Of a stretch of DNA of 64,000 nucleotides, positions 47,768 through 56,422 are shown one piece after another. The translations under genes and the position numbers were made by a program. The stretch is taken from NCBI RefSeq assembly GCF_003413745.1, contig NZ_QVID01000001.1:1426001-1490000 (forward strand), in the 5' to 3' direction. Source of the DNA: Marixanthomonas ophiurae. GTDB lineage: Bacteria; Bacteroidota; Bacteroidia; Flavobacteriales; Flavobacteriaceae. The notes under the pieces were generated by a model. The model was given only the letters and a program-made list of their open reading frames with translations. It was not told the origin of the DNA and searched no databases. Each line of letters opens with the position of its first letter. Positions within the stretch are counted from its first letter, which is position 1.

Positions 47768-47785
47768 ATAGGGCATTTGCCGTAT
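47768..47785. promoter_or_regulatory. Palindromic operator 1 (regulon motif)
   Basis: ATAGGGCATTTGCCGTAT differs at one position from the consensus ATAGGGCAATTGCCGTAT. The motif ends 22 bp before the -7 box CACCTTTG (47808-47815) and lies 60 bp before the lipoprotein ATG. Three similar sites with identical spacing occur at 48544, 50598 and 54661. Confidence 0.75.
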
Positions 47786-47807: not shown

Positions 47808-47815
47808 CACCTTTG
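47808..47815 (+). promoter_or_regulatory. -7 box (CACCTTTG) under operator 1
   Basis: CACCTTTG matches TANNTTTG at six of eight positions, 30 bp before the ATG at 47846. It is placed 22 bp after the palindrome, the same as in the other three sites. Confidence 0.6.
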
Positions 47816-47845: not shown

Positions 47846-48367
47846 ATGAAAACGTTAAAAACTATTTCTTTAATTCTATTTGTAAGCTTATCATTATTGG
47901 CGTGTAAAAGCGATGACGACGGCGGAAGTGACCCTCAAGGTGGTGAAGGCGACTTTACAGCGAAAGTTGACGGCAGTTCTTTTGAAGGTTTAACAGGAAC
48001 TGTCAAGGCTGTTGTTACCGATAATGGAGCTGGCCAGTCACTTGCAGTTAGTGGCGGAACTAGTAAGTCTGAAAATCTACAGATGATTATTCAAGGTTTT
48101 GATGGTGAAGGCACCTACCAATTAAACTTTACGAGCATAGGCACCTATAGTTACCTGCCAGATCCAAATAACCCAGATCCTAATACCGTAGTTGTTTTTA
48201 CTACAGTTGGGGATGCTCAAGGTAATTATGGTGAGTTAAAAGTGTCAAGTTTTGACGGCGAAACAATAAAAGGGACCTTCAACTTTACAGGTTACAATTT
48301 GGATGATATTAATGACACTGTTGGTGTAAGCGATGGAGCTTTTAACATAAAAGTTTCGGATCAATAA
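47846..48367 (+). CDS. Uncharacterised lipoprotein (DUF6252-like)
   Basis: 173 residues. Signal with lipobox ending at Cys20 (LILFVSLSLLACKSDDDGGS), followed by an acidic, glycine-rich export-type spacer (SDDDGG). The mature domain, FTAKVDGSSFEGLTGTVKAV through QMIIQGFDGEGTYQLNFTSI, resembles the small beta-sandwich DUF6252 family of Bacteroidota, but I assign this only by eye. It is likely at the cell surface. It carries operator 1 and is the first gene of the regulon. Confidence 0.65.
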   Translation: MKTLKTISLILFVSLSLLACKSDDDGGSDPQGGEGDFTAKVDGSSFEGLTGTVKAVVTDNGAGQSLAVSGGTSKSENLQMIIQGFDGEGTYQLNFTSIGTYSYLPDPNNPDPNTVVVFTTVGDAQGNYGELKVSSFDGETIKGTFNFTGYNLDDINDTVGVSDGAFNIKVSDQ

Positions 48368-48409
48368 AAAAGGAGTTAGAAAATCTCAGATGTTGAGGTT
48401 TTTACGTGG

Positions 48410-48447
48410 AGCCGGGAGCGAGACAACAGTCTTACTTCCGGTTTTTT
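48410..48447 (+). terminator. Terminator after the regulon lipoprotein
   Basis: An imperfect GCCGGGAG/CTTCCGG stem with a long loop is followed by TTTTTTA, 43 bp past the stop. A second hairpin sits directly behind it. Confidence 0.6.
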
Positions 48448-48473
48448 ATTCCCGCTAAGACGGGAATCTTTTT
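48448..48473 (+). terminator. Second terminator hairpin, tandem
   Basis: ATTCCCG pairs with CGGGAAT around a 6-base loop, then CTTTTTTG. Tandem with the previous stem, it strongly isolates the lipoprotein gene from the PQQ-type gene. It resembles the CCCG-rich repeats at 28815 and 35746. Confidence 0.7.
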
Positions 48474-48543
48474 TGAATTTCATTTCACCTCGGAAAATCT
48501 AATACAATAGAATAACAAGATTCCTGCCTTCTAAGGAGATTAA

Positions 48544-48561
48544 ATACGACAATTGCCCTAT
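48544..48561. promoter_or_regulatory. Palindromic operator 2 (regulon motif)
   Basis: ATACGACAATTGCCCTAT, read on the reverse strand as ATAGGGCAATTGTCGTAT, matches the consensus at 17 of 18 positions. It ends 22 bp before the -7 box CATCTTTG (48584-48591) and 58 bp before the ATG at 48620. Confidence 0.75.
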
Positions 48562-48583
48562 TGAAAACAAAGTAGTTACGTAG

Positions 48584-48591
48584 CATCTTTG
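48584..48591 (+). promoter_or_regulatory. -7 box (CATCTTTG) under operator 2
   Basis: CATCTTTG matches TANNTTTG at seven of eight positions. It is 28 bp before the ATG of the PQQ-type protein and has the conserved 22-bp separation from the palindrome. Confidence 0.65.
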
Positions 48592-48619
48592 ATGTATTCA
48601 ATTAATTAAAACCACGATT

Positions 48620-50494
48620 ATGAAAACTTCAAAAAAATTAAAGCTACTCTTATCTATCTATTTGTTAGGTGCAGTAGTAGTAACTGCGCAACGTGCAGAA
48701 GCACCAGATTTTAGATACGATACTGGAGCAAAAATCAACGAAATGACCCTCACGCAAGGTGGAACTATGGTTGTAGCTACTAATGAGGGCTTAGTAGGAA
48801 TAAAACCAGGTAGTAATGAACTGTTGTTCAACTTTACTAATTATGGAAGAGTAAAGCCGGAGGAATTAACCTACGTGCCAAACGCACCTTATGTGATTGT
48901 TGCCCAAGGAGGGTTTGCTAATCTAACTTCAAAAAAATCGGTGATTGATTATATGTCGGGTAAAACATTGTTCAACACCGAAGATAATGGTTGGAAATTA
49001 GCCTACACTTGTGATGTTATGATGCCACAAAATAAATTAGTAGTAAGTGGCCAACGTTCTTCTAAAGAAAAATACGCATTGCAAGTAGCAGTATATGATC
49101 TTAACACAGGAAAAGAAGATTATAGATTTAATTTAACCGATCCTAATCGAGTTGGAATTGCTAAAGACTTCAGCGTAACGGGACGTCCATTATTGTTAAA
49201 AGACCATTTAATTATTCCTACAGCTCAAGGTTTAGTGGCAAAAAAAGCTAAAACCGGAAAAACGCTTTGGGAAAATAAAATGAAACGTATCAATTGGATG
49301 GTTGCCGATGAGTCTGAAAAAGAAATCTACGCTTTTGAGAGTGTGAATAATGGTAGCAACACCAAAATTCATAAAGTAGGAAGTAACGGTGCTCAACTTT
49401 GGGAAGATGAACAAAAGGTAAAAGGCAATATAGCTAATTTTGAAATATTACCTAACGGACTTGCTGTAGTTAGCAATAAAAGTGATGGTGGTAACTCTAG
49501 TATTTTTTCTGCTAAAAACGAGTCGGAAATAGCCTTTTTAAGCGCTGCCAACGGTGAAGATCTTTGGGACAAAGCACCAAAAACAAAAGGGTATGTTCAG
49601 CATTTCTACATTATGGATGATGGAATTCTTTTCGGAATTTATGAAGGCGGTATCAACAAAATTTCATTTGATGGAAAAACACTTTTCAAAAAACCATTGA
49701 AGACTGGGGAGAATATTCTAACCATGGCCGACACACCACAGGGATTGATTTATATCACTTCAGAGGACGCTAATATTGTTAATTTGAAAACAGGAGAACA
49801 AATTTGGAAAAAACCATTGAAATATAGACGGGCCGATGCCGTAAGTTCAACTTACGACAGTAAAAACTCTCGTTATTTAATAAGCGCCGATGATGAGCTG
49901 TTTGCTGTCGATGCCAACTCTGGCGAAGTTTCAACCTTAGCAGAATCTAAATTTGACGGTAAAGAAGACCCAACTCACGTTGAGGTGCGTGACGGTGGAA
50001 TTTTATTGACAAGTGACCAAAACATGATGTTATTAGATTGGCAAGGCGGTAAAAGCTGGCACGAGTATTACCGAGCACCAGGAAAAAGTGCTTTTGGGGC
50101 AATCATTGCTGGTGTAACTGCAGTAGCAACGGCTACAACCGCAGTAGCGGCTTACAATGCAGCCAATCAAAATCGTAATAAATTGGGCAGATATACTGAC
50201 AGAGGTGAGCGTTATGCAGATTTAGGCGGTGGAATGGCCATGGCAAGTGGTGCTTCAGTAGCTGAAATGTTGAAGCGTTTTAAAGCAACAGCCGCCACTA
50301 AAAACAATCAATTTGTATTAACAAAACTTGATGATGGGGTTGGGTTAGTGAAACTAAACAAGGACTCTGGGTCTAAGGAAAAAGAAATTGTTTTAAAAGA
50401 TAAAAAACCAGAATACCAAGTAGATGATATTGCGGGGATATTGTATTACAAAGCTGATAATAATAGCATTTTCGCTTACGATTTGACCAAATAA
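48620..50494 (+). CDS. Secreted PQQ-type beta-propeller protein
   Basis: 624 residues with a signal peptide (LLLSIYLLGAVVVTAQ). The body is a PQQ-like beta-propeller (about 40-480): repeats such as LVAKKAKTGKTLWENKMKRI and IFSAKNESEIAFLSAANGED LWDKAP, ending NLKTGEQIWKKPLKYRRADA. After it comes a helical, Ala-rich segment (AIIAGVTAVATATTAVAAYN) that may be a membrane or oligomer helix. No catalytic motif or PQQ-binding residue set is evident, so binding or scaffolding is likelier than oxidation. It carries operator 2 and is a target of the regulon. A terminator follows. Confidence 0.82.
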   Translation: MKTSKKLKLLLSIYLLGAVVVTAQRAEAPDFRYDTGAKINEMTLTQGGTMVVATNEGLVGIKPGSNELLFNFTNYGRVKPEELTYVPNAPYVIVAQGGFANLTSKKSVIDYMSGKTLFNTEDNGWKLAYTCDVMMPQNKLVVSGQRSSKEKYALQVAVYDLNTGKEDYRFNLTDPNRVGIAKDFSVTGRPLLLKDHLIIPTAQGLVAKKAKTGKTLWENKMKRINWMVADESEKEIYAFESVNNGSNTKIHKVGSNGAQLWEDEQKVKGNIANFEILPNGLAVVSNKSDGGNSSIFSAKNESEIAFLSAANGEDLWDKAPKTKGYVQHFYIMDDGILFGIYEGGINKISFDGKTLFKKPLKTGENILTMADTPQGLIYITSEDANIVNLKTGEQIWKKPLKYRRADAVSSTYDSKNSRYLISADDELFAVDANSGEVSTLAESKFDGKEDPTHVEVRDGGILLTSDQNMMLLDWQGGKSWHEYYRAPGKSAFGAIIAGVTAVATATTAVAAYNAANQNRNKLGRYTDRGERYADLGGGMAMASGASVAEMLKRFKATAATKNNQFVLTKLDDGVGLVKLNKDSGSKEKEIVLKDKKPEYQVDDIAGILYYKADNNSIFAYDLTK

Positions 50495-50555
50495 ATCAAT
50501 TAGCCGAGTTAGTTTCAGGCCTAACCTGAATGAGGAGCAGGTAAAGCCAATTATG

Positions 50556-50590
50556 AAACCCCATCTTTTTTAGATTGGGGTTTTGTTTTT
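50556..50590 (+). terminator. Terminator after the PQQ-type gene
   Basis: AAACCCCATC pairs with GATTGGGGTTT around a T-rich loop and is followed by TTGTTTTTT. It precedes operator 3 by 8 bp. An additional small TTCAGG/CCTGAA palindrome lies at 50514-50530. Confidence 0.85.
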
Positions 50591-50597
50591 TATTGAA

Positions 50598-50615
50598 ATA
50601 GGGCAATTGCCGTAT
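50598..50615. promoter_or_regulatory. Palindromic operator 3 (exact consensus)
   Basis: ATAGGGCAATTGCCGTAT is the site closest to the consensus, symmetrical over nine bases on each side with one C/G difference. It ends 22 bp before TAACTTTA (50638-50645) and 48 bp before the ATG at 50663, which starts the small ORF/sensor kinase unit. Confidence 0.8.
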
Positions 50616-50637: not shown

Positions 50638-50645
50638 TAACTTTA
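50638..50645 (+). promoter_or_regulatory. -7 box (TAACTTTA) under operator 3
   Basis: TAACTTTA matches TANNTTTG at seven of eight positions and has the 22-bp separation from the palindrome. It is 17 bp before the small ORF. Confidence 0.6.
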
Positions 50646-51001: not shown

Positions 51002-52765
51002 ATGAAAAAAGCATTGATTCTTATATTTTTGGTTTCTTCAGTACTGTTTTCACAAAACAAGAAAAGTATAGACTCTATTAATAGTATATACACGCAGGGG
51101 CTTAATATTCCTGAAGATTCTATTTTACAGTTATATAAGGATAATGCTGAAAACGCCCGGAAAATTTCCTATGAAAAAGGCATTGCTGGAGCGTACTCAA
51201 AACTTTCGTTGGCATACTCCTATCAAGGTATTTACGATAAAAGTACCCAATATGGGCTTGAGGCTGTTAAGTTATATGAAAAATTAGGTTTAAATGATCA
51301 GGTAGCTTATCGTTATGCTGAAATGGGCTATAGCATGAAATATTCTAATATGGAAAAAGCTCAGGCCTATATGCAAAAAGGAAAATCTGTAGCTGAAGCA
51401 AAAAAGCTTGACTCAGTTTTAAAAGACATTTACAATAATTATGGTGTTTTAAAGGAAATTCAAAAACAATTGGATAGTGCACTTTACTTTTATAACAAAG
51501 GATTAAAAATTAAAAAAGAACAAAATGATTCTATCGGGATTCCATACAGCATAAGCAATTTGGCAGGTGTCTATGGTTTGCAGAAAAAGTATGGAAAAGC
51601 AAAAGAATATTTTAACCAGTCACTTCAAACCCGTTTAAAAATGGAAGATTCCATCGGGGTTGCCGAAAATTATACGCAAATAGGCGAAGTTTTTATGGCG
51701 GAAGAAAAATATGACGAAGCCATTCAATATATAAAAAAATCGTTGCCCATTTCAGTTGAAAAAGAGTACCGAAACCTTACTCAATACAATTATAAAACCC
51801 TTTCCGACATTTTTAAAAACCAAAATAAAGCAGATTCTGCTTTGTTTTATTTTGAAAAATACCTAGCTGTAAAGGATAGTATTCATAATACAGAAATTCA
51901 AAAAAAGATAGCAGAACTATCCATAGAATTTGAAACCGAAAAAAAAGAAAAAGAATTAGCAGAACGTGAACTTGAAATAAAACAAAAAAACACCCTTCTT
52001 TATGGAAGTCTCGGTCTTGCTTTTCTATTAGGACTTTTAGGTTATTTGTTTTATAACCAACAGAAACTAAAAAACAGACAACTAAAAAAAGAGAGCGAAT
52101 TAAAAACTGCCTTGGCAAAAATCGAGACCCAAAATAGGTTGCAAGAACAACGACTTAGAATTTCGCGAGATCTACACGATAACATAGGTGCCCAGCTCAC
52201 TTTCATTATTTCATCGATAGACAATTTAAAATATGGGCTGAAAGGCGCTACATTAAAAACAAAAGAAAAATTATCATCAATTAGTGCATTTACGTCACAG
52301 ACCATCTACGAATTACGTGATACTATATGGGCAATGAACAAAGAATCCATCACTTTTGAAGATTTGCAAGCCCGTATTACCAATTTTATTAATAAGGCAA
52401 GCAATGCTTCAAATAACGTTGAATTTACATTTTATGTTTCAGAAAACATCCCAGCCAATTATATGTTTACTTCAGTTGTGGGGATGAATATTTACCGCAT
52501 TATACAAGAAGCGGTGAACAATGCCTTAAAATATGCTGATAGTTCGTCTATTTATGTGGAAATTTCAGAAGAAAGAGATAATTTTTTCATTGAAATTTCA
52601 GACGATGGCAAAGGTTTCAACATAACTGAAACAGAACAAGGAAACGGACTCAATAATATGAAAAAACGAGCTCGGGAAATTGATGGTATTCTGGAAATTG
52701 TTTCAAAGAAAAATATTGGTTCTAGTGTTATTTTGAAAATTTCTATAAAGCCAACCAGACCATAA
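51002..52765 (+). CDS. TPR-type sensor histidine kinase (HisKA_3)
   Basis: 587 residues from the ATG at 51002, whose product has a signal peptide (MKKALILIFLVSSVLFSQ); an upstream ATG would destroy it. Residues 20-330 are about seven TPR repeats predicted to lie outside the membrane (AGAYSKLSLAYSYQGIYDKS, DSALYFYNKGLKIKKEQNDS). A coiled coil and helix (YGSLGLAFLLGLLGYLFYNQ, about 334-353) follow. The kinase core has HisKA_3 histidine His392 in RISRDLHDNIGAQL, then HATPase motifs NIYRIIQEAVNNALKYA and DDGKGF. It should phosphorylate the NarL-type regulator at 54735. The two are separated by a T9SS gene. Confidence 0.93.
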   Translation: MKKALILIFLVSSVLFSQNKKSIDSINSIYTQGLNIPEDSILQLYKDNAENARKISYEKGIAGAYSKLSLAYSYQGIYDKSTQYGLEAVKLYEKLGLNDQVAYRYAEMGYSMKYSNMEKAQAYMQKGKSVAEAKKLDSVLKDIYNNYGVLKEIQKQLDSALYFYNKGLKIKKEQNDSIGIPYSISNLAGVYGLQKKYGKAKEYFNQSLQTRLKMEDSIGVAENYTQIGEVFMAEEKYDEAIQYIKKSLPISVEKEYRNLTQYNYKTLSDIFKNQNKADSALFYFEKYLAVKDSIHNTEIQKKIAELSIEFETEKKEKELAERELEIKQKNTLLYGSLGLAFLLGLLGYLFYNQQKLKNRQLKKESELKTALAKIETQNRLQEQRLRISRDLHDNIGAQLTFIISSIDNLKYGLKGATLKTKEKLSSISAFTSQTIYELRDTIWAMNKESITFEDLQARITNFINKASNASNNVEFTFYVSENIPANYMFTSVVGMNIYRIIQEAVNNALKYADSSSIYVEISEERDNFFIEISDDGKGFNITETEQGNGLNNMKKRAREIDGILEIVSKKNIGSSVILKISIKPTRP

Positions 52766-52971: not shown

Positions 52972-54516
52972 ATGAAAAAGACAATTACTCTATTTTTTAC
53001 GCTTGTATTTATAATTCAGGCCAATTCCCAAATTTTTAATTCAGGTTTTGAGAATAACAATGGCACTCCTTTATCCGATTTTACAACAATTAATAATGAT
53101 GGTCTATCCGTGCCCTCTTTCGCACCAGTCCAAGATTTTAATACAGAAGCTTGGATACAGTTTTATGACGGTTACGATAATAAAATTGCATTTAGCACTT
53201 CTTGGTACGATCCCGCTGGACAATCTGATGATTGGCTCATTACGCCAGCCATAGAAATTCCAAATGCTGGAGATCCTACGCTGTATTGGAAAGCAAAATC
53301 TTATGATTTTGAATTGTTGGAGGACTATGAAGTTCGTGTCTCGACAACAGACAACGAAATGTCAAGCTTTACAGATGTACTTTTGAATGTAGATGGAGAG
53401 CAGCCCTTTGACTATAACTCTAGATCTTTAGATCTATCTGCGTACAAAGGACAAACTATTTATGTAGCATATGTAAATACCACTTTTGATGGTTTTTATT
53501 TAGCGTTGGATGATTTGTATATAAGTGAATCTGCAAATTGTGCTTTACCAGATGTAACTGGGGTTACAAGTAGTGATCTTACTGAAAACAGTTTTACAGT
53601 TTCTTGGACAGCAACTGCAGATATAACAATGTATGATACAGGACTTACAACATTTACAGAGTCTGTTTCATCTACAGGAATACAAACCGAACTTACTAAA
53701 AGCTATAGTGATTTAACACCAGGAACTCGGTATCAGTTTTTCTTGAAGAATGCTGACTGTGGTTCAGGTTGGGCTACCCCAACTTCAATTTGGACCGCTG
53801 CTATTCCGCCGTATTCTTATGATTTTGAATATACCGAAGAAAATTATGGCGAATATGATTCTGATGGATGGTCGTCAAACACATGGATTAACGGAAGCGG
53901 TGAAAATGCACAAAATGGTTCGGGTTATGTATATAATAATACGAGTAGCTCTTTTGAAAAGGATGATTGGATTTACTCGTACCCCATTAAATTGGATGAA
54001 GGAGAAAAATTAGCGATTCAATATTATTTGCAATTAGGTTCAGAGACTGCCGATCCTGCAACTTTAAAAATTGCAGCTGCTACTGCGCCTGACAAAGATT
54101 CTAATATAGCCGAGCTGAACAGTCATACCATTGCTGGCGGAGACTATATAGAATATACCTCAGAGTTTACTGCTTCTGAAGCGGGAGTATATTATTTCGG
54201 ATTTGGAAACGTAACGCCAATTGTTACTGAAAGTTCAGCATTGCGTTTGGATAATGTGCGTTTTACTTCTGAGCCGCTTTCAGTAGGTGATGCTTCAATT
54301 TCAGAAATAACTATTTATCCAAATCCCGTAAAAAATCGCTTGATGATTAATACTGAAAAACCTGTTAATGACATTCAGTTATACACCATTAATGGAAAAT
54401 TGATAGCAGAACTTGCGAATACAAATGAAATTGACTTTGCTTCATATCCTAAAGGCATGTACTTTGTTAAAGTAAGTACCGAAAATGGAACATCAGTAAA
54501 AAAGGTGATTAAATAA
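52972..54516 (+). CDS. T9SS cargo with choice-of-anchor J and fibronectin-like domains
   Basis: 514 residues. Signal peptide ending NSQ. A choice-of-anchor J-like domain (DWLITPAIEIPNAGDPTLYW, GYSAYKGQTIYVAYVNTTFDG-type core LDDLYISES) is followed by a fibronectin III-like domain (LTENSFTVSWTATADITMYD) and a second jelly-roll-like domain (SYPIKLDEGEKLAIQYYLQL). The end is a type A sorting domain: ISEITIYPNPVKNRLMINTE, then IQLYTINGKLIAEL and YPKGMYFVKVST ending VKKVIK. This directs secretion through the type IX system to the surface. It lacks the palindrome, has an ordinary promoter region, and lies between kinase and regulator. Confidence 0.88.
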   Translation: MKKTITLFFTLVFIIQANSQIFNSGFENNNGTPLSDFTTINNDGLSVPSFAPVQDFNTEAWIQFYDGYDNKIAFSTSWYDPAGQSDDWLITPAIEIPNAGDPTLYWKAKSYDFELLEDYEVRVSTTDNEMSSFTDVLLNVDGEQPFDYNSRSLDLSAYKGQTIYVAYVNTTFDGFYLALDDLYISESANCALPDVTGVTSSDLTENSFTVSWTATADITMYDTGLTTFTESVSSTGIQTELTKSYSDLTPGTRYQFFLKNADCGSGWATPTSIWTAAIPPYSYDFEYTEENYGEYDSDGWSSNTWINGSGENAQNGSGYVYNNTSSSFEKDDWIYSYPIKLDEGEKLAIQYYLQLGSETADPATLKIAAATAPDKDSNIAELNSHTIAGGDYIEYTSEFTASEAGVYYFGFGNVTPIVTESSALRLDNVRFTSEPLSVGDASISEITIYPNPVKNRLMINTEKPVNDIQLYTINGKLIAELANTNEIDFASYPKGMYFVKVSTENGTSVKKVIK

Positions 54517-54660: not shown

Positions 54661-54678
54661 ATAGGTCAATTGCCCTAT
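54661..54678. promoter_or_regulatory. Palindromic operator 4 (regulon motif)
   Basis: ATAGGTCAATTGCCCTAT, reverse-read as ATAGGGCAATTGACCTAT, matches the consensus at 16 of 18 positions. It lies 56 bp before the response-regulator ATG. At the usual 22-bp distance is TACTTTTC (54701-54708), and ten bases further a second, TATCTTTA (54711-54718). Confidence 0.75.
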
Positions 54679-54700: not shown

Positions 54701-54718
54701 TACTTTTCAGTATCTTTA
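54701..54718 (+). promoter_or_regulatory. Overlapping -7 boxes under operator 4
   Basis: TACTTTTC at 54701-54708 sits at the conserved distance from the palindrome and matches TANNTTTG at seven of eight positions. TATCTTTA at 54711-54718 also matches seven of eight, one helical turn further. Which one is used cannot be told. The ATG is 16 bp past the second. Confidence 0.55.
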
Positions 54719-54734
54719 GTACAACTAACTACCT

Positions 54735-55385
54735 ATGAACATTAAAGTTTCTATCGTTGATGATAATTCGTTTTTAATTCACGCCATTAAAGAAAAGCTC
54801 TCTTTTTTTGATGATATTGAAATTAAACACACCTCTCTTAACGGGAGTGAGTTACTTACTAAGTTGGAAGAAAATCATAATCTCGATATCATTTTAATGG
54901 ATATTGAAATGCCCGTTTTAAATGGTATAGAAACCACTCAATTGGTCAAACAGAAGTATCCGCAGATTAAAATAATCATGTTAACAGCTTTTGACAATGA
55001 TGAACATATTTTTAATGCCATTAAAGCTGGAGCTGACGGGTATCTTTTAAAAGAAATAAACCCTGAGGAACTCTATAAAGGGATCAAAGAAACCCTAAGT
55101 GGTGGTGCAGCCATGAACCCTTCCATAGCATTAAAGACTCTAAAACTTTTACGTAATCCTATCGATATTGATAATTTTAAAGACAAAGAAGAAATTTCTT
55201 TATCTAAACGAGAAGTTGAAGTTTTAGAACAATTAAGCAAAGGCTTAAGCTATACAGCTATTGCAGATAATCTTTTTCTGTCACCAAGTACCGTTCGTAA
55301 ACACATTGAAAACAGCTATAAAAAACTACAAGTGCACAGTAAAATTGAAGCCGTACAAAAAGCAAAACGACATAATATTATTTAA
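54735..55385 (+). CDS. NarL/LuxR-type response regulator
   Basis: 216 residues. Receiver domain with phosphoacceptor Asp56 in DIILMDIEMPVLNG and the other acidic pair (VDD) at residues 8-10. The C-terminal LuxR HTH has LSKREVEVLEQLSKGLSYTA and IADNLFLSPSTVRKHIENSY. It should act as the DNA-binding partner of the kinase at 51002. Palindromes of this kind are usual for NarL-type dimers, and the gene itself carries operator 4, so it likely controls itself and the other three units. The assignment of the operator to this protein is inference. Confidence 0.94.
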   Translation: MNIKVSIVDDNSFLIHAIKEKLSFFDDIEIKHTSLNGSELLTKLEENHNLDIILMDIEMPVLNGIETTQLVKQKYPQIKIIMLTAFDNDEHIFNAIKAGADGYLLKEINPEELYKGIKETLSGGAAMNPSIALKTLKLLRNPIDIDNFKDKEEISLSKREVEVLEQLSKGLSYTAIADNLFLSPSTVRKHIENSYKKLQVHSKIEAVQKAKRHNII

Positions 55386-55513: not shown

Positions 55514-56422
55514 ATGAAAAAGCTTTTAATACTTGCTTTAGCGATTACAACTTTCGCGTGCAGTAATGATGACAACAATGCACAGGTGATTAATAACCCA
55601 CAAACTCCGGGGCTGGCTTACGCTGTAAGTGACTCTGACTTCACTACAACTTATAGTTTACTGCGTAGCGAATTACAGGCAAATCCCAATATATCAATTA
55701 TAGCCGAAGTAAATCACACGGCCAATGCAGAAAGTATCGACAAAGATTTACGAAACACACGGGTTATCTTCTTCGGAAACCCGGCTTTGGGAACTCCTTT
55801 AATGCAGCAAAATCAATTAGCAGGTCTTGATTTACCACAAAAAATGTTAGTGTATCAAGATTCAGACAACAATGTTTTTGTTTCATATAATGGAACGGAG
55901 TATTTAGCTGCAAGACACTCGGGTGTTGGCGGGGCTCAAACATTACAACAAATAAAAAGCGCCTTGGCTAATTTTACTGAAAGTGCAACCAATGGCAATG
56001 TTTCAGAAAATTCTAGTAGTGGAATTACCAATAAGCAAGGAATTATAACGTTAGTAAGTAATAATGATTTTAATTCTACATATAATAACCTAAGAAATGC
56101 AGTTGTAGATAATGCTGCTCTTACTCTTTTTGCAGAATTAAACCATCAAGAAAATGCACCCAATGAAGAGGATTTAAACCCTACACGGGTAATTATCTTC
56201 GGAAATCCAGAGCTAGGAACTCCTTTAATGCAAAATGCACAAACTACGGCAATTGACTTACCTCAAAAAATGCTGGTTTGGCAAGAAGAAGATGGTCAAG
56301 TTAATATTTCTTATAACGATCCTATTTTCTTTAAAGAAAGACACGGAATTACTAATAACGATGAACGTTTAGGACAAATTAAAAGTGCCCTAAATAATTT
56401 AGCGATAGACGCAGCAAATTAA
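55514..56422 (+). CDS. Tandem DUF302 lipoprotein
   Basis: 302 residues. Lipoprotein signal ending ITTFACSNDDNN (Cys16). Two similar DUF302 domains follow at about residues 36-135 and 178-290. The first reads TTYSLLRSELQANPNISIIA, then RVIFFGNPALGTPLMQQNQL and LDLPQKMLVYQD. The second reads STYNNLRNAVVDNAALTLFA, then RVIIFGNPELGTPLMQNAQT and IDLPQKMLVWQE. DUF302 proteins (PF03625) are small periplasmic-type proteins of unknown ligand. The pair arose by duplication. The gene lies 128 bp after the response regulator and lacks the regulon palindrome. Confidence 0.88.
   Translation: MKKLLILALAITTFACSNDDNNAQVINNPQTPGLAYAVSDSDFTTTYSLLRSELQANPNISIIAEVNHTANAESIDKDLRNTRVIFFGNPALGTPLMQQNQLAGLDLPQKMLVYQDSDNNVFVSYNGTEYLAARHSGVGGAQTLQQIKSALANFTESATNGNVSENSSSGITNKQGIITLVSNNDFNSTYNNLRNAVVDNAALTLFAELNHQENAPNEEDLNPTRVIIFGNPELGTPLMQNAQTTAIDLPQKMLVWQEEDGQVNISYNDPIFFKERHGITNNDERLGQIKSALNNLAIDAAN

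Follow-up and report, generated by a model that had tools for sequence, protein, structure and literature searches.

Feedback and sensing partners of envelope systems include NlpE or CpxP for Cpx and RcsF for Rcs. The closest characterized system to the locus described here is FimS/FimR of Porphyromonas gingivalis, to which the predicted mode of action of the locus is similar. In P. gingivalis, the promoter bound by FimR is that of the gene leading the fimA cluster (PMC1974823).

We analyzed a stretch of 64,000 nucleotides (referred to as the window; all coordinates given without a locus name refer to it) that forms part of the 3.3-Mb genome of Marixanthomonas ophiurae, a member of the Flavobacteriaceae. 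Within the genome collection, the records most closely related to it bear the names Marixanthomonas, Zunongwangia, Altibacter, Ulvibacter, and Aequorivita. The genes at the locus are ordered as follows: alaS, GSCFA, DUF6252 lipoprotein, PQQ_2 propeller, 84-amino-acid ORF, TPR kinase, T9SS-type secreted protein, NarL-type regulator, DUF302 lipoprotein, and metK. An earlier note on this DNA had proposed that the lipoprotein and the propeller are exported, independent outputs of a two-component module. Taking together the features collected in Table 1 and their conservation among relatives, we estimate a probability of roughly three in four that a self-contained two-component switch with positive autoregulation has both proteins as its outputs.

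Table 1. Coordinates of the predicted genes, operators, and terminators of the module in the window
Feature	Position	Strand	Basis and remarks
Operator 1, ATAGGGCATTTGCCGTAT	47768..47785	+	Before lipoprotein; -7-like box CACCTTTG at 47808-47815
DUF6252 lipoprotein, 173 aa	47846..48367	+	Lipobox; Pfam DUF6252; model all-beta
Terminator hairpins behind lipoprotein gene	48405..48475	+	Folding energy; T run
Operator 2, ATACGACAATTGCCCTAT	48544..48561	+	Before propeller; -7-like box CATCTTTG at 48584-48591
Exported tandem beta-propeller, PQQ_2 repeats, 624 aa	48620..50494	+	Pfam; model; hydrophobic insert at about residues 488-555
Terminator hairpin behind propeller gene	50552..50592	+	-15.4 kcal/mol, then TTTTGTTTTTT
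Operator 3, ATAGGGCAATTGCCGTAT	50598..50615	+	Before small ORF and kinase; -7-like box TAACTTTA at 50638-50645
Small membrane ORF, 84 aa	50663..50917	+	One TM segment, then coiled-coil-like region; kept in many relatives
TPR sensor kinase	51002..52765	+	Signal peptide; TPRs; TM at about 332-350; HisKA_3; HATPase_c
Operator 4, ATAGGTCAATTGCCCTAT	54661..54678	+	Before regulator; -7-like box TACTTTTC at 54701-54708
NarL-type response regulator	54735..55385	+	Receiver and LuxR/GerE HTH; recognition helix SPSTVRKHIEN

The ORFs of the lipoprotein and the propeller were as first described, and both products carry predicted export signals, a lipobox in the former and an N-terminal signal sequence devoid of a lipobox in the latter. 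As the note had stated, a regulon operator stands before each gene (two of the four palindrome copies precede them) and a strong terminator behind each, with hairpins of -21.5 kcal/mol for the lipoprotein gene and -15.4 kcal/mol for the propeller gene. The former hairpin, within 48405-48450, ends in a T run, and a second one comes after it at 48448-48467. Because each gene has its own operator upstream and a hairpin-T terminator downstream, the two are predicted to be separate transcription units that share the same type of operator.

The gap between the kinase and regulator genes holds a secreted protein (52972-54516) with Cleaved_Adhesin and fn3 domains and a T9SS sorting domain (Por_Secre_tail). 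It was rejected as a member of the module, as it has no operator and gave one weak match, of 28%, among 80 related loci; it looks like a lineage-specific insertion. A lipoprotein with two DUF302 domains is encoded at 55514-56422, and it follows the regulator in several relatives as well (10 or so loci). Inside its gene, an operator-like sequence (TACGGCAATTGACTTA at 56245) lacks a -7 box and probably occurs by chance.

The operator pattern, defined as ATAGGGCAATTGCCCTAT with at most 3 mismatches, matched four times in the window, compared with a mean of 0.03 in shuffled sequence. Exactly four sites exist in the 3.3-Mb genome, all of them at the module, and the reversed control gave none. When operator and promoter were combined into a 46-bp cassette, TAVGNCANNTGNCBTA-N23-YANYTTT, four matches were again obtained in the window versus none in 100 shuffles. 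The spacing is fixed: at each of the four sites, the palindrome center lies exactly 31.5 bp upstream of the start of the -7-like box. The same arrangement was seen in relatives. A relaxed operator, TAVGNCANNTGNCBTA, had 203 sites in 80 related loci versus 0 for a scrambled control, and the genes that these sites precede nearly always encode a regulator, lipoprotein, propeller, small ORF, or MORN protein. At the fixed offset, 143 of the 203 sites had the box [CT]A.[CT]TTT; any other offset had it 1.2 times on average, and the reverse orientation was encountered once. A sigma-70-type promoter scan was disregarded, being unsuited to Bacteroidota. Flavobacterial sigma-A boxes are positioned at -12 to -5 (PMC9723704), which places the operator center near -43.5, adjoining the -33 element. 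Such a geometry fits a class-II activator, and we infer that the regulator binds these sites and activates, rather than represses, the promoters next to them.

The recognition helix of the regulator offers a further clue. All 42 loci whose regulator has a PS-type helix (SPSTVRKHIEN) carry a GGCA-type operator. For regulators with helices of the TG or SG type, the corresponding position is mostly taken by a shifted palindrome, TACGNAATTCNTCGTA, and SPST-helix regulators of another family of the order, with about 50% identity overall, have the same operator before their own gene. Operator type thus appears to track the recognition helix, a correspondence that is confounded by clade. No better indication is available that the sites are read by the neighboring regulator.

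The distribution of the cassette was determined in a survey of 151 Flavobacteriaceae genomes, nearly all representing different genera, of which 44 contain a regulator orthologue and 107 do not. Perfect matches to the cassette were present in 23 of the 44 regulator-bearing genomes and in none of the 107 others. Most copies (52 of 58) are situated at the module locus, and there were two control matches. The remaining six copies, located elsewhere in the genomes of relatives, speak for an alternative in which the regulator represses the promoters, or the palindromes are read by another regulator of the genome, and the genes are not outputs of the pair. We regard either possibility as very improbable, given that the cassette is limited to regulator-bearing genomes, that the operator type follows the recognition helix in a second family too, and that the operator lies immediately upstream of the -33 element, as would befit an activator.

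The module is shared by many marine flavobacteria, and its genes were found to travel together. A propeller orthologue was present in 35 of the 151 genomes, with a remnant in one more, and all 36 possess the regulator, whereas the propeller was found in 0 of the 107 genomes without it. Since the locus occupies a fixed place beside alaS, vertical inheritance explains part of this linkage; joint absence is the stronger evidence. In all 63 loci that hold the GSCFA and regulator flanks, the kinase, propeller, and regulator are present on one strand, the presence of the propeller being given by construction because it served as the query; the genome survey represents the independent test. The lipoprotein occurs in 58 of these 63 loci, and 42 have a small membrane ORF located somewhere from propeller to regulator. 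Homologues were not found widely without the kinase. The exceptions are a locus from a metagenome-assembled genome (L033), in which operators are present and the regulator comes immediately after the propeller, with no kinase at the locus, and two propellers (L104 and L105) of 24% identity that were set aside as a separate family lacking linkage. The view that the two genes are outputs of the two-component module gained support, as they are separately promoted, are predicted targets, and travel with it, the propeller being confined to regulator-bearing genomes (36/36 versus 0/107).

Eight genomes contain the regulator and lack the propeller. The lipoprotein is retained in seven of them, and in place of the propeller there is either nothing or another exported protein, in one instance an FG-GAP propeller. 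One further genome has a remnant of the propeller next to an exported protein unrelated to it. Because the lipoprotein is retained while the propeller slot is emptied or refilled, the lipoprotein appears to be nearly core and the propeller to be one exchangeable output among several. The earlier description of two independent outputs, each with its own promoter and terminator, is amended in this respect. Relatives add DUF6498 membrane proteins and MORN-repeat proteins, often with their own operator. In many relatives, the MORN-repeat proteins are exported and encoded between propeller and kinase (L009:12783-15014, L064, L066, and L046).

The losses of the propeller also bear on a possible role in sensing. 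The propeller could bind the TPR region of the kinase, and/or the lipoprotein could relay the status of the surface, each generating feedback as do the partners of Cpx and Rcs. Both proteins are predicted to reside in the compartment of the kinase and are co-inherited with it, and retention of the lipoprotein in seven of the eight propeller-less genomes would agree with such a role. However, the propeller is absent, decayed, or replaced while kinase and regulator persist, so it is not needed for signaling in general. We consider this co-sensor function unlikely and continue to favor the interpretation of both proteins as outputs.

The module combines a HisKA_3 kinase with a NarL-type regulator, as is characteristic of a two-component system. 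All four Pfam domains scored over the cut-off (HisKA_3, 40.2 bits; HATPase_c, 41.3 bits; Response_reg, 87 bits; GerE, 65.2 bits). The kinase has a single transmembrane segment, and its TPR region is predicted to be periplasmic. It is the least conserved part of the module, with 35 to 46% identity in many related loci, so the pairing of kinase and regulator rests on their adjacency. Small membrane/coiled-coil ORFs of about 80 to 95 amino acids occupy the same place in relatives and fall into two unrelated-looking families, smORF and c21 (e.g., L068:12114-12398); they are possibly partners of the kinase.

The lipoprotein was assigned to DUF6252 by its match to PF19765 (36.8 bits versus a cut-off of 27.2; E, 5.3e-9) together with its lipobox, LSLLAC. 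The lipobox cysteine, C20, is invariant and is directly followed by KSDDD. At least two acidic residues are found in positions +2 to +6 in 64 of 64 homologues. An acidic signal behind the cysteine of surface-exported lipoproteins (LES) has been described (PMC5080379), and the CKSDDD start has the form of such a signal. By this acidic start, the protein resembles the surface-exported type and is predicted to belong to it. Structure prediction yielded a confident all-beta domain (pLDDT, 85), for which Foldseek returned no match at an E value of 0.001 or less; the best match, LpqH, had a TM-score below 0.5 and was not used as a structural relative. The Mfa1 model gave 15.3 bits where 130 are needed.

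For the propeller, the PQQ_2 match was strong (E, 3.5e-15), and the structural model (pLDDT, 78.5) displays a tandem beta-propeller interrupted by an insert that is hydrophobic, rich in Ala, and modeled with low confidence. Residues 321 to 400 form a nearly invariant stretch. Foldseek retrieved many tandem WD propellers with TM-scores of 0.2 to 0.3, which supports the fold class only, and BamB structures were among the matches; a PDB sequence search with the propeller profile gave no match. A PQQ-dependent dehydrogenase was rejected, as the score for PF01011 (24.1 bits) was under the cut-off of 26.7. The lack of an enzyme motif noted earlier was borne out, with no enzyme family found in either protein. 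Given the signal peptide and the fact that Pfam detected no T9SS C-terminal domain, a periplasmic location is plausible, and the hydrophobic insert, at about residues 490 to 516, could serve for membrane attachment.

The PQQ_2 repeats, shared with BamB, and the BamB structures among the fold matches raise another explanation, in which the switch detects envelope damage and its outputs, with a BamB-like propeller among them, build or repair the outer membrane. This seems quite unlikely to us: the propeller misses the BamB equivalog cut-off by far (TIGR03300, 40.5 versus 285.2 bits), the genome-wide operator set includes no folding or assembly factor, and the outputs differ between genera, unlike assembly machinery.

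In the output model that we prefer, the predicted periplasmic TPR region of the kinase would sense an envelope or extracytoplasmic cue, upon which the kinase would phosphorylate the NarL-type regulator. A dimer of the regulator would bind the palindrome TASGNCANNTGNCSTA, centered at about -43.5 and adjoining the -33 element, and would activate the sigma-A promoter of its own gene together with those in front of the lipoprotein, the propeller, and the small ORF with the kinase. Levels of kinase and regulator would rise along with those of the outputs, resulting in auto-amplification. The exported products, a lipoprotein at the surface and a propeller that is periplasmic or attached to a membrane, would change the cell surface or the periplasm. 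They are most likely not enzymes but proteins for binding or recognition, and may serve in adhesion, recognition, or envelope surveillance.

A wider hypothesis can be put forward tentatively, at clearly less than even odds. TPR-kinase/NarL switches throughout the Flavobacteriales, defined by the SPST helix and the TASGNCANNTGNCSTA-(-7 box) cassette, may repeatedly recruit exported beta-propellers of unrelated types as their working parts; together with the lipoprotein, such propellers would make up an exchangeable surface-recognition device that is sensed and amplified by the kinase. Propellers at such switches are of the PQQ type here, FG-GAP in L109, sortilin/BNR with a T9SS signal in L086 and L092, PD40-OmpA in L085, and WD40-caspase in L119, examples that are not set against a background rate of propellers. 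In other families of the order (L086 and L091 to L093), the cassette is located before solitary proteins of the sortilin/BNR type that carry a T9SS sorting domain. The cassette-led operon in L119 (439-5315) lies away from the module; its gene for a papain-like protease comes first, and the WD40-caspase (Peptidase_C14) gene comes after it.

These results tie two protein families of unknown function to one regulator, and the precise, genome-unique DNA signature makes the whole regulon testable with one mutant. If our interpretation is true, a self-amplifying, nearly locus-confined regulon whose exported outputs are swapped from genus to genus would lend itself well as a model of surface tailoring in Bacteroidota. 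In this phylum, where few regulators have been mapped, the combination of the SPST helix with TASGNCANNTGNCSTA beside a sigma-A promoter would provide one class of them with a rule for site recognition. The regulon appears to be undescribed as far as we could find, the kind of regulator being ordinary; the literature on DUF6252, flavobacterial PQQ propellers, and TPR-kinase/LuxR systems yielded no paper on the locus, and DUF6252 was named in no paper found.

As the earlier note had supposed, no named system was found to match the combination of lipoprotein, propeller, and TPR kinase. The lipoprotein passes the Pfam cut-off of the DUF6252/Riean_0653 family and narrowly misses that of NCBIfam Riean_0653 (54.8 versus 57); the family is without a described function, and to our knowledge it had not been linked to a two-component regulon before. 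Similarly to BamB (YfgL), the propeller is exported, contains PQQ_2 repeats, and adopts a propeller fold. In contrast to BamB, it is a tandem propeller of 624 amino acids with a hydrophobic helical insert, is not a lipoprotein, and has no related PDB chain by sequence; with its score under the equivalog cut-off, membership was rejected. The resemblance to FimS/FimR extends further. Both systems comprise a TPR-type sensor kinase and a LuxR-type regulator that acts, or is predicted to act, on the promoter of exported surface proteins (PMC1974823), and the match of the kinase to the FimS model spans almost its full length (E, 6.7e-23). However, its score of 80.8 bits for NF053520 is below the cut-off of 600 and no better than that for UhpB. 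Pfam and model searches detected no fimbrial families at the module locus; with the kinase under the FimS cut-off and no fimbrial genes among the targets, the module was not assigned to FimS/FimR. It differs from that system in that the predicted regulon includes the kinase and the regulator themselves and is confined to the locus.
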